41,003 nucleotides of DNA from a virus. The position numbers and the translations under genes were made by a program. The stretch is from positions 1 through 41,003 of IMG/VR virus record IMGVR_UViG_3300007029_000005. One strand, written 5' to 3'. The notes under the pieces were generated by a model. The model was not told the origin of the DNA. It searched no databases and saw only the letters and a program-made list of their open reading frames with translations. Of the stretch, positions 19,557 through 36,134 are shown in pieces (position 1 is the first letter of the stretch; each line of letters opens with the position of its first letter).

Positions 19557-19580
19557 AGGGTGGTCACTCTTACTGGTAGA

Positions 19581-19595
19581 TTTGTACCCATACCC
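19581..19595 (-). promoter_or_regulatory. Late element, copy B (tape measure)
   Basis: Exact copy of GGGTATGGGTACAAA, 25 nt before the ATG at 19556 and after the end of the frameshift product. Confidence 0.7.
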
Positions 19596-19628
19596 GGCCG
19601 GCCGACTCGGGCCCTCGAAAAGGGGAGG

Positions 19629-20542
19629 CTACTGCTTGTTGAGGTGGCGGCCCCCGCCGTTGTTCTGACGGGCCTCCTTCTGCATCTCTTCCCGCTTCTC
19701 GTCTTTCATCTGCAGGTACTCCCGGTGGAGGACGGAGAACTCTTCGACCTCCTTATCGGTGAGCCCCGGCTGGACGTGCTCGATCACGTCGACGGCCGGC
19801 CCGACGTCCAGGCGGTCGGCGAGCTCCTCACCCTTCCACCACAGACCGAGGGCGGTGGCGAGGAACATCCCCCCGAGCAGCAGGGCCCCGGCGTGAGCCA
19901 CCCCGGCGGCCAGGAAGGAGAGGGCCGCGGCTGCCGCCCCGAGGTGATCGGCGGTCGGGGTCAGCCGCTCCCGGTGACGGACCTCCTTCGTGTACGAGCC
20001 CCGCAGGTCCTCGAGGGTGATCCCGTCCCACTCCTCAACGAGCTTGTACTCTATTGCTCGTCGCTGATAGTAGGCTCGGGCGGGGTTCCCGTATCGCCCT
20101 CCGCTACTCCCTCCGCGAAGGGCTCGTCGGAGTTTTTTTCTTCCTGATCCGTCAGGGCCTTACCCGGGTTCGGGGCCACCTCCTGGAGCTTCGTCCCGAG
20201 CTCCGGGCTCATCCCGGCCAGGAAGATGGAGAGACCGGAGTCCCCGCTGACCCCGTCGACGGAGGTATCCTGGATCATCGCCTCGAGGCAGTTCTTGTAG
20301 TACGAGTCGATGTGGAGCTCGGTCGCGTCCTCGCCGATCTTGAGCGCCTCGCTCACGTACTTGTTCTTGCCCTTCCAGGTGAGCTGCTTCACGTCGAACC
20401 AGAACCGGACGACCTCACCCTCCGGGTTCGGGGCCCGGATGTACACCCGCTCGGTCTCGTCGGAGACCATCGCGTCGTCTCGGCTTCCGTCTCGATGCTC
20501 GTCCCACCATTCGGGCTTCTCACCGCGGCTTATGTCAGACAT
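19629..20542 (-). CDS. Tail assembly chaperone G-T fusion made by -1 frameshift
   Basis: Predicted 304-aa product. Translation starts at 20542 in the chaperone frame, slips back one base at A_AAA_AAC (20138-20132), and continues as CTC CGA CGA GCC... to the TAG at 19629. The downstream frame is open from before the slip site and encodes a coherent 167-aa extension: a basic start (ARAYYQRRAIEYKLVEEW), a Gly/Ala-rich helix around AAAAALSFLAAG, and a charged tail. The extension has no ATG near its beginning; its first GTG is far inside, cutting a likely domain. The gene order, G, G-T, tape measure, matches the lambda-type chaperone pair. The frameshift is predicted, not shown. Confidence 0.8.
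20051..20542 (-). CDS. Tail assembly chaperone (G-type)
   Basis: 163 aa from the ATG at 20542 (GGAG 11 nt before, in a CTAACA leader shared with 24821 and 26890). Acidic, two-domain: residues about 25-110 hold strands and helices (FWFDVKQLTWKGKNKYVSEALK), and about 110-163 hold a tail. Position just upstream of the tape measure plus the frameshift site identify it as the chaperone that coats the tape measure during tail assembly. The non-shifted product ends at the TAG at 20051. Confidence 0.8.
   Translation of the reverse strand: MSDISRGEKPEWWDEHRDGSRDDAMVSDETERVYIRAPNPEGEVVRFWFDVKQLTWKGKNKYVSEALKIGEDATELHIDSYYKNCLEAMIQDTSVDGVSGDSGLSIFLAGMSPELGTKLQEVAPNPGKALTDQEEKNSDEPFAEGVAEGDTGTPPEPTISDEQ
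20132..20138 (-). promoter_or_regulatory. Programmed -1 frameshift slippery site A_AAA_AAC
   Basis: The heptamer lies in codons GAA AAA AAC of the chaperone gene, in the exact phase needed (X_XXY_YYZ). A seven-A run is rare in this GC-rich genome. The -1 frame is open from before the site to 19629, immediately before the tape measure unit. Confidence 0.85.
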
Positions 20543-32816: not shown

Positions 32817-35234
32817 TCAGGCTGCCTCCTGGAAGGTCCCCGGGAACGGCTCGGCCCCGAAGTCGGCCTTGAAGGACTCCACGAAGGTGTGGCGCTCGTG
32901 AGGGTGAAGCACCCAGTCGTCGCTGTACTTGAGCTCCGGGAAGAACCGGTCGGCGGCCTCCCGGGCCAGCTGATGGAGCTCCTCGAGGGTGACCGGCTCG
33001 CCCCCGTAGGCCGGGTCGGTCTGCTCTTTCATCCACACGCAGGCGTCGGTGGTGTGACCGTCGTCGGGGGTCCCCGGCCCGGTCCACTTGAACACCTTGT
33101 CGCCCGCTCCCTCCTCATCGGTCTGCGCCTTGTACGCTTCCTCCCGGGTTTTGTTGAGCACCCGCGAGGACTCGGTCCGGGCCCAGGTCTCGGCCTTCTC
33201 GTAGCTGACGTCGAAGGCGTCCTGGATGTCGTCCCGGATGCTCTTGAGAGACCACCCCTCGGGCTGCGTCAGGTTCTCACGAAAGAGCTCCTTCAGCTGG
33301 TCGATGTCACCCGGGCCGAGGTCCTCGATCTGGTCGTAGATAACGTCGAACTCATCCAGTACCCGGTTGAGGGCCTCCTTCACGAAGTCAGGGACGACGT
33401 CGTCGTCCTCCCAAAACGGGTCGGCCTTCTGATCGGCCTCGGCCCACACCATATGCTCGTGACCTTCGGCGAGCTTGGTGGAGAGGTCCGCCAGCTCGCC
33501 CTCGCTAAAATCCCCGAGCAGGTCCTCCGGATCACCCCCGGCCTCATCGCGGTCGCCGTCCTCCGAGAAGAAGCCGCCCCCGCCGTCGTCAGAACTCTCC
33601 TCGAACTCGCCGTCGGAGATATCGACCTCACCGTCCTCCCACCGGGCTTCGAGCCCGGCGTCGGCCGCGGACTGACCCAGGTCGACCTTGGCCTGCTGGT
33701 CCTCGGCCGAGGCGTCCTGGGCCGGGATGAACGTGATCCGGTAGTCGGTCACCCCGAGGAGCTTGGTGAGCTCATCCAGGGGCCCGCTCGCCAGGTCGTG
33801 CTGACGGGTGGCGATACCCCGGTCGGTCACCTCGAGCTGCAGCCCCTCGTTGTTGAGCCCGCCGGCTTCCTCGAGCTCCGAGTCGAACACGTCAGTAACG
33901 TCCCAGGCCTGACGGATGTCGCTCTTGAACTGCTTTTTCAGCTGCTCATCCTGCCCGAGCAGCTCGTCGTTCATCAGGTCGATCACCTGGACCTCCGGTG
34001 TCGACTGACTTTCCGAGCTGTACTCGTTCATCATAATCTGCTGGCTGTACGGGTTCTCCTTCGAGTCCTCTTCGGCCTTCTTGAAGTTCCGCTCCCAGGT
34101 GTCCGGGTTCGTGGTATGAACTACCATAAACTTGTTCGGGTAGCGGTCGCTCGAGGGGTCGTAGAAGGCCGAGCCGTACACGTCCATCCAGTGGAGGATG
34201 GACTGTTTGAGCCAGACGTGGTGAGCCGGCGAGAGGCCGTCCTTCCCGTTGAGGCGCGGGAACCAGAAGGCCCAGTCGACCACCTCGTGATCGAAGTAGT
34301 ACTTCTCCGGGTCCCGGGTCGCCGATGAGCCGTTCTGCTTTTCGATGTAGTACACCTCCTGGAGCTCGGCCCCGCACTCACCACACCGGCCGGGCTCCTG
34401 GCTGACGACCGCCTCGGGGTTCGGCGGGCGGTGAACCGGGCAGGCCCACCAGAAGTTCCCGATGCGGCCGTTCTCATCGACCACCGGGACCACCCGCTTT
34501 GGGTCAGCCCGGACGAGCTCCTCAACGTCCTGGTAGATAATCTCGCCCCGGTCGAACACCGAGGAGTCGCCCTTGGCGATGGCGTAGTTCCACCTGACGA
34601 TGTGCATCCCGATACCGAGCCGGGCGTGATCGTCCTCGCAGTGCTTGTACAGGGCACGGATAGACTGCCCCTCCTTGTTCACCGACTCGAAGAGCTGCTC
34701 GGCCTCCCGCTTCTGCTGCGGGTCGGGCCCGCGGGTCTGACCCTGGTAGTGATCCGGGTCGATCTCGTCCAGGTCCCGCGGGGGGTTCTCATCGATGCCC
34801 TCCTGGATGAGGTACTTCCGCGTACACTCGAGGCAGGCCTCCACCTCCTCGCTGTACTCGGCCCCGCAGGTCTCACACTTCACCGCGAACCGGGGCTCCA
34901 GGAGCGGGAACTCGTTACGGAAAAGCTCGTCCCGGTACTTCGCGGTCGCCCGGGCGATCTCGTATCCGTCCAGGGCCAGGGCCTCGAGCTGGACTGACCC
35001 CAGGTCGGTGAACACGTCGTTGAACCGCCGGATGGGGCCACCCTCCCGCTTGTCCTTCCCCTCATCGCTGGTGGGGTCCGGCGTCGTGGTCTCCGGGTCG
35101 GTGTCGGTCTGATCGGCCAGGCTCTTCCCGACCGCTTGCGATGCCAGGTTCTCGTTGTACGGCGCGAGCAGGACCGACCGACCGTCGGCGTCGGTCCCGA
35201 GCCGCTGTACCGGACTTTCAGGTTCGGAGCTCAT
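32817..35234 (-). CDS. Portal protein fused to MuF-like head morphogenesis domain
   Basis: 805 aa. Residues about 60-520 are a portal-like part: RFNDVFTDLGSVQLEALALDGYEI, MHIVRWNYAIAKGDSSVFDRG, FYDPSSDRYPNKFMVV, and helices rich in D and Q. Two zinc sites are inserted (C-E-T-C ... C-L-E-C near 119-136; C-P-V-H ... C-G-E-C near 265-290). From about 640-790 lies a MuF/SPP1 gp7-like domain: AETWARTESSRVLNKTREEA, FKWTGPG, T-D-A-C, and H-P-x-E-R-H. Portal-MuF fusions exist in some phages but zinc sites in a portal are unusual. Late element copy E precedes it. Confidence 0.8.
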   Translation of the reverse strand: MSSEPESPVQRLGTDADGRSVLLAPYNENLASQAVGKSLADQTDTDPETTTPDPTSDEGKDKREGGPIRRFNDVFTDLGSVQLEALALDGYEIARATAKYRDELFRNEFPLLEPRFAVKCETCGAEYSEEVEACLECTRKYLIQEGIDENPPRDLDEIDPDHYQGQTRGPDPQQKREAEQLFESVNKEGQSIRALYKHCEDDHARLGIGMHIVRWNYAIAKGDSSVFDRGEIIYQDVEELVRADPKRVVPVVDENGRIGNFWWACPVHRPPNPEAVVSQEPGRCGECGAELQEVYYIEKQNGSSATRDPEKYYFDHEVVDWAFWFPRLNGKDGLSPAHHVWLKQSILHWMDVYGSAFYDPSSDRYPNKFMVVHTTNPDTWERNFKKAEEDSKENPYSQQIMMNEYSSESQSTPEVQVIDLMNDELLGQDEQLKKQFKSDIRQAWDVTDVFDSELEEAGGLNNEGLQLEVTDRGIATRQHDLASGPLDELTKLLGVTDYRITFIPAQDASAEDQQAKVDLGQSAADAGLEARWEDGEVDISDGEFEESSDDGGGGFFSEDGDRDEAGGDPEDLLGDFSEGELADLSTKLAEGHEHMVWAEADQKADPFWEDDDVVPDFVKEALNRVLDEFDVIYDQIEDLGPGDIDQLKELFRENLTQPEGWSLKSIRDDIQDAFDVSYEKAETWARTESSRVLNKTREEAYKAQTDEEGAGDKVFKWTGPGTPDDGHTTDACVWMKEQTDPAYGGEPVTLEELHQLAREAADRFFPELKYSDDWVLHPHERHTFVESFKADFGAEPFPGTFQEAA

Positions 35235-35257
35235 AGGTGGCAGGCGTTGTGCGTAAC

Positions 35258-35272
35258 TTTGTACCCATACCC
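35258..35272 (-). promoter_or_regulatory. Late element, copy E (portal unit)
   Basis: Exact copy of GGGTATGGGTACAAA, 24 nt before the portal ATG at 35234. Confidence 0.7.
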
Positions 35273-35279
35273 GGCCGGG

Positions 35280-35480
35280 TCACTCCGCCGGCCCCTCGCC
35301 GTCGACGGCGTCCTCATCCTCATCGGCGTCCGGCGGGGTCCCGAACCAGTCAGATATGATCCAGGCGAGCGGGTTCTCCGGGTCGAAGATAACGTACTTC
35401 GGGCCCTCCTCGGTGTCGACGGAGTACCCCTCATCCCGGACCACGTCCTCACCGTCGGGCGGGTCAGAACCAGCTCCCAT
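35280..35480 (-). CDS. Small acidic hypothetical protein
   Basis: 66 aa from the ATG at 35480. An ATG at 35501 is in frame but lies inside the late element and before the likely transcript start. Highly acidic, with one hydrophobic segment PLAWIISDWFG that may bind a partner. Located between terminase and portal units. Not recognised. Confidence 0.65.
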   Translation of the reverse strand: MGAGSDPPDGEDVVRDEGYSVDTEEGPKYVIFDPENPLAWIISDWFGTPPDADEDEDAVDGEGPAE

Positions 35481-35490
35481 ACCCGAGTTT

Positions 35491-35505
35491 TTTGTACGCA
35501 TACCT
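35491..35505 (-). promoter_or_regulatory. Late element, copy F (diverged)
   Basis: AGGTATGCGTACAAA on the minus strand, 11 nt before the ATG at 35480; two bases differ from the other five copies. Confidence 0.6.
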
Positions 35506-35525
35506 GACCGTTCGGAAGGCCGACG

Positions 35526-36134
35526 CTACTCCTCATCGCCGGCCTCCTCGGTCTCGGTGGTGACGTCCTGACGGACCTCATCCGGGAGGTCCTCGGGGTC
35601 GGCCTCGCCCTCGATCAGGTCCTGGACGGTGAGGTCCTCGTCGGGGTCGGGCTCCATCCGGCCGTACTTCGCGTTCGCGTTGAAGGTGAACGTGTACTCG
35701 CCCTCGTACTCATCGGCCACCCGGGAGAGGGCCGCGATTATGGCCTGCCGGTGATCGTCGGAGATGTACTCCGCGACGAAGTGTTGAGCCGCGAGCTCGT
35801 ACTTGAACGCCCGAAGGTCACCGGTGCAGTTTGAGCAGATACGCTCCCCGGTCTCGAGCCGGCGGTAGGCGACCCCCTCGTCGGCGTCGGCCTGCGGTAT
35901 CTTACAGAGGATGCACAGCTGGTCCTTCACGGCGTACGTCGGAAGCCGGAGGTCCCGCTCGCACTGCTCACACCTCACCGGGTCCGCGGGCTTCCCCGCG
36001 AACGGGTCGTACCACGGGACGGTCACCGGCTCCCCGCAGCTCGGGCAGTGGGATAGCTCCGGGTAGGCGTCGGGATGTTTGGTCCACCTAAACAGTACCT
36101 CGTCGGGCTCGCGTTCTGGTGTCTCTTGAGTCAT
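35526..36134 (-). CDS. Zinc-ribbon protein beside the terminase
   Basis: 202 aa. Four Cys pairs: C-P-S-C (30-33), C-E-Q-C (55-58), C-I-L-C (74-77) and C-S-N-C (101-104), giving two zinc ribbons. Residues about 115-165 are a mixed domain (HRQAIIAALSRVADEYEGEYTFTFN), with an acidic tail. Located right after TerL. A packaging accessory or late transcription factor is possible, but no family is recognised. Confidence 0.72.
   Translation of the reverse strand: MTQETPEREPDEVLFRWTKHPDAYPELSHCPSCGEPVTVPWYDPFAGKPADPVRCEQCERDLRLPTYAVKDQLCILCKIPQADADEGVAYRRLETGERICSNCTGDLRAFKYELAAQHFVAEYISDDHRQAIIAALSRVADEYEGEYTFTFNANAKYGRMEPDPDEDLTVQDLIEGEADPEDLPDEVRQDVTTETEEAGDEE

Follow-up and report, generated by a model that had tools for sequence, protein, structure and literature searches.

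A probable lambda-type −1 frameshift in the tail chaperone genes of a haloarchaeal tailed virus

The viral DNA analyzed here, an IMG/VR-type virus record of 41,003 nt that we refer to in full as the window, in all likelihood carries a tail chaperone gene pair of the lambda type (G/G-T) from a haloarchaeal tailed virus, in which a −1 ribosomal slip at the heptamer A_AAA_AAC would yield a 304-aa G-T protein. Because a reading frame of this base composition (65% GC) would lack a stop codon over the 139-codon stretch specific to T with a probability of about 0.045, the openness of the −1 frame by itself is weak evidence, and it is the comparison with related sequences that carries the case. The window is thus very probably a well-supported new example of a phenomenon already reported in several close relatives.

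Gene G, its slip site, and the −1 frame

The genes lie on the minus strand in the order tail tube (21808–20786), G (20542–20051), T (to 19629), and tape measure (19556–18330). The tube protein (340 aa) matches the Pfam family Phage_tube_2 (E-value 3e−23) and is 41% identical to the tail tube of HHTV-2, and the tape measure protein (408 aa) matches the corresponding PHROG (E-value 9e−92) and is 44–46% identical to its counterparts in HCTV-2 and HVTV-1. G was assigned to PHROG tail assembly chaperone families (E-values 2e−18 to 3e−10), two of which are longer models that also cover T, phrog_25860 over nearly all of it and phrog_35486 at its C-terminal end. In tblastn searches, the only named relatives of G were HCTV-5 and HVTV-1/HVTV-2 (33% identity to the HCTV-5/HVTV-1 chaperone, E-value 4e−13). 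T alone had no tblastn match among named phages, being recognized only by profile or alignment, and no named phage matched the window at the DNA level. The structure model of G is of low confidence (mean pLDDT 59.8) and gives correspondingly weak matches in the viral library, to the chaperones of HHTV-2 (E-value 1e−6) and Bacillus phage Gemini, with no fold match in the PDB at E < 0.001. The gene order and the annotation of the homologs as tail assembly chaperones bear out the identities proposed in the initial annotation. All chaperone and tape measure matches are to haloviruses, and 14 proteins of the window are acidic (pI 4.05–4.98), which is consistent with a haloarchaeal host; scans of contigs from species genomes found no related provirus.

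G extends from an ATG at 20542 to a stop codon ending at 20051 and encodes 163 aa in the 0 frame. Its codons 135–137 read GAA AAA AAC and place A_AAA_AAC at 20138–20132 in the phase required for a −1 shift, exactly as had been claimed, and G runs on for 26 codons past the heptamer. The −1 frame stays open between 20159 and 19629 (176 codons), hence, as initially described, from before the slip site to just short of the tape measure gene. Counted from the slip, the extension T (20138–19629) comprises 169 codons and adds 167 aa to residues 1–137 of G, and this sum reproduces the fusion length first given for G-T. The first ATG, GTG, or TTG of the −1 frame is a GTG at 19901, 79 codons past the slip, in agreement with the earlier description of T as lacking an early start of its own. 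The A-run was rightly called rare: positions 20139–20133 form the sole A7/T7 run of the window, and AAA accounts for only 20 of 211 lysine codons (9%). More generally, X_XXY_YYZ motifs with Y = A or T occupy 2 of the 6,064 in-phase positions in the 14 minus-strand genes. As plain DNA, AAAAAAC is present in two copies in the window versus a chance mean of 0.5; the second copy, also on the minus strand (35493–35487), is out of −1 phase for the open reading frame at 35231–35581.

Conservation of the slip site and of T in relatives

Two related contigs, designated L002 and L003 (G identity to the window of 91% and 75%, respectively), share the A7 run and the open −1 frame, and the heptamer lies within a block of 31 nt that is invariant in the three sequences. 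Both features, whose absence from related genomes would have spoken against the initial proposal, are therefore kept in the clade of the window; in more distant relatives the open −1 frame is retained as well, and the A-run usually gives way to another classical heptamer. In upstream G, the window and L003 agree at 57 of 92 comparable degenerate codons, against 11 of 11 at codons 134–144; dual coding would be expected to cause part of this constraint. In the stretch past the G stop, where only T is encoded, the T frame shows dN/dS ratios of 0.42 between the window and L002 and of 0.52 and 0.45 for the pairs involving L003. For the window–L002 pair, it has the lowest ratio of the six frames (0.63–2.0 for the other five), and substitutions in the T-only region fall mainly at third codon positions (14/11/27 at positions 1, 2, and 3). 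T codons thus evolve as those of a protein under purifying selection. A plus-strand open reading frame (19560–20147) was also considered and set aside, since the single frame that stays open over T on the plus strand has a dN/dS of 1.49.

A tape measure profile scan retrieved 28 loci, and the genes upstream were examined in 24 of them, leaving aside HVTV-1 (L025, taken from its annotation) and three incomplete loci. T lies in the −1 frame of G and is homologous from the slip site onward in 24 of 24 loci, a count that, like those that follow, includes closely related loci and is not one of independent events. The junction carries a classical heptamer in 20 loci (AAAAAAC in nine, GGGAAAA in four, TTTAAAC in three, GGGAAAC in two, and GGGAAAG and AAAAAAA in one each), and HCTV-1, which is outside the scan, has G_GGA_AAC. 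The four remaining loci have nonclassical sites: G_GAA_AAC in HHTV-2, L022, and L045, which read GAG GAA AAC TGA while the −1 frame goes on with the T motif GKLRxAVR, and A_TTA_AAC in L046, which reads GAA TTA AAC GTG TGA and continues with KRVTRAIR. In all 24, the second (A-site) codon is AAC, AAA, or AAG. The G stop codon is found 0–1 codons past the site in 20 of 24 loci, the exceptions being the clade of the window (26–31 codons) and HCTV-5 (9 codons). The nonclassical sites and the proximity of the G stop may be new features of the family. A tentative reading, which we hold to be possible but the less likely one, is that the −1 shift in this family depends mainly on the A-site codon, so that the first codon may re-pair badly, and that, the G stop being usually so close, slippage may compete with termination; the peptidyl tRNA would then slip with the stop codon already positioned in the A site.

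Several other observations concern the same region. In HHTV-2, genes 47 and 48 (L016:1207–2150) were deposited as separate genes, and a −1 shift at its G_GAA_AAC may have been overlooked. An open reading frame on the opposite strand separates T from the tape measure gene in two loci (L039:2434–2913 and L043:2258–2851). T contains one or two strongly hydrophobic segments of 19 residues in most relatives (best Kyte–Doolittle value 1.6–2.4), located at 19930–19840 in the window; they are absent in HCTV-5, L012, L029, L030, and HCTV-1, and lambda T peaks at 1.38.

RNA stimulators and alternative explanations

A possible 3′ stem-loop is predicted about 8 nt past the slip site (20124–20041, minus strand), with a 9-bp stem formed by GCCCUUCGC and GCGGAGGGC. 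In a comparison limited to hairpins, it is not clearly better than shuffled sequences (z of −1.43 in the window, −1.92 in L002, and +0.64 in L003). At the four nonclassical sites, a small sample, the downstream fold is stronger than that of shuffles (z of −3.6, −2.5, −2.05, and −2.19). A GGAGG motif ends exactly 10 nt 5′ of the site in HCTV-5, L012, HHTV-2, L022, and L045. We nevertheless do not invoke a Shine–Dalgarno-like stimulator, an optional element of bacterial sites, since the region is rich in glutamate codons and synonymous shuffles therefore mostly pair equally well; only L022 (0.026) and the window (0.038) depart from this, the latter with a weak pairing energy (−3.3 kcal/mol, and less in L002). 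A search of Rfam gave no match.

The A7 run, present in the window, L002, and L003, could also suggest that the RNA polymerase slips on this homopolymer and that the fusion is translated from mRNA of altered length. Seven adenines are, however, a short run for polymerase slippage, and the relatives have GGGAAAG, GGGAAAC, GGGAAAA, or TTTAAAC at this place, which are slip sites for two tRNAs and contain no long homopolymer. Ribosomal −1 slippage better explains why A_AAA_AAC, G_GGA_AAG, and T_TTA_AAC interchange at one position, and we regard a transcriptional origin of the fusion as very unlikely. Homopolymers at the junction of a metagenomic contig may raise the suspicion of an assembly error or of a pseudogene. 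Another contig, of nearly the same virus (99.88% identity to the window over 8,489 nt), also has the A7 run and both frames, which makes such an error unlikely, and so do the two diverged contigs. Selection, moreover, acts on both frames, and we give practically no credit to either artifact.

T might instead be an independent gene, with a start codon of its own or with re-initiation once G has terminated. HHTV-2 was deposited in this form, with T beginning at a GTG just past the G stop. This is hardly credible for the window, whose first start codon lies well inside T, within the hydrophobic segment. Re-initiation is also disfavored across the family, since most loci encode the conserved beginning of T ahead of any in-frame start codon; in L034 and L040, a TTG occurs farther upstream in the −1 frame. 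A ribosomal −1 shift thus remains the preferred explanation.

Relation to known systems and proposed mechanism

The initial annotation implied that such a frameshift would be new in an archaeal virus. This does not hold, as the deposited records of HCTV-1, HCTV-2, HCTV-5, and HVTV-1 already contain joined coding sequences. A close parallel is provided by genes 40/41 of HCTV-2 (Haloarcula californiae tailed virus 2, Saparoviridae), which share with the window homologous G and T, the position between tube and tape measure, and the site A_AAA_AAC at the same place, a site named in published text for HCTV-2. The beginning of T is also alike in the two viruses (KKLRKAVR vs. KKLRRALR), but their G proteins are 27% identical, and that of HCTV-2 stops directly after the heptamer whereas that of the window continues. 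In Druskaviridae, HCTV-5 (genes 128/129) and HVTV-1 (129/130) have homologous G and T, the same layout, and an annotated join; HCTV-5 differs by its site, G_GGA_AAG, and by a T without hydrophobic segments. Hardycor1 (HrrHc1_110/115), compared here by its published description, is another haloarchaeal virus with a predicted −1 shift in its tail chaperones, at G_GGA_AAT (PMC7911831). Outside viruses, experiments on the archaeon Saccharolobus solfataricus have demonstrated −1 slippage at A_AAA_AAT in fucA1, which encodes a cellular enzyme and not a viral chaperone (PMC8211752).

As to phage lambda, the proposal of a lambda-type mechanism stands as far as the conserved heptamer and the layout are concerned: both systems have the gene order V, G, T, H and a slip site toward the 3′ end of G. 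The question of whether archaeal ribosomes use the same heptamer was inexactly put, since the lambda site is G_GGA_AAG; lambda also has a bacterial host, and the likeness is one of layout, with no claim of sequence similarity. The sequences show the layout, the homologies, purifying selection on the −1 frame, and conservation of the heptamer, whereas we infer the occurrence of slippage, its rate, and the roles of the proteins. Most ribosomes would read G through to its own stop, while a minority would slip back by one base on A_AAA_AAC, the lysine and asparagine tRNAs re-pairing with AAA AAA, to produce G-T. By analogy with lambda, G would bind the tape measure protein, with the T moiety recruiting tail tube subunits, so that the slip rate would set the ratio of G to G-T.

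According to published work, −1 frameshifting “seems to be used” in these haloviruses, and fucA1 is the one archaeal case reported to have experimental support (PMC8211752); the haloviral cases are treated there as likely. With the window, the short list of archaeal −1 frameshift sites gains a well-conserved member. Moreover, the naturally occurring sites of the 24 loci (A_AAA_AAC, A_AAA_AAA, G_GGA_AAC, G_GGA_AAA, G_GGA_AAG, T_TTA_AAC, and the two nonclassical ones) constitute a panel with which the sequence preferences of archaeal ribosomes in slipping can be measured.
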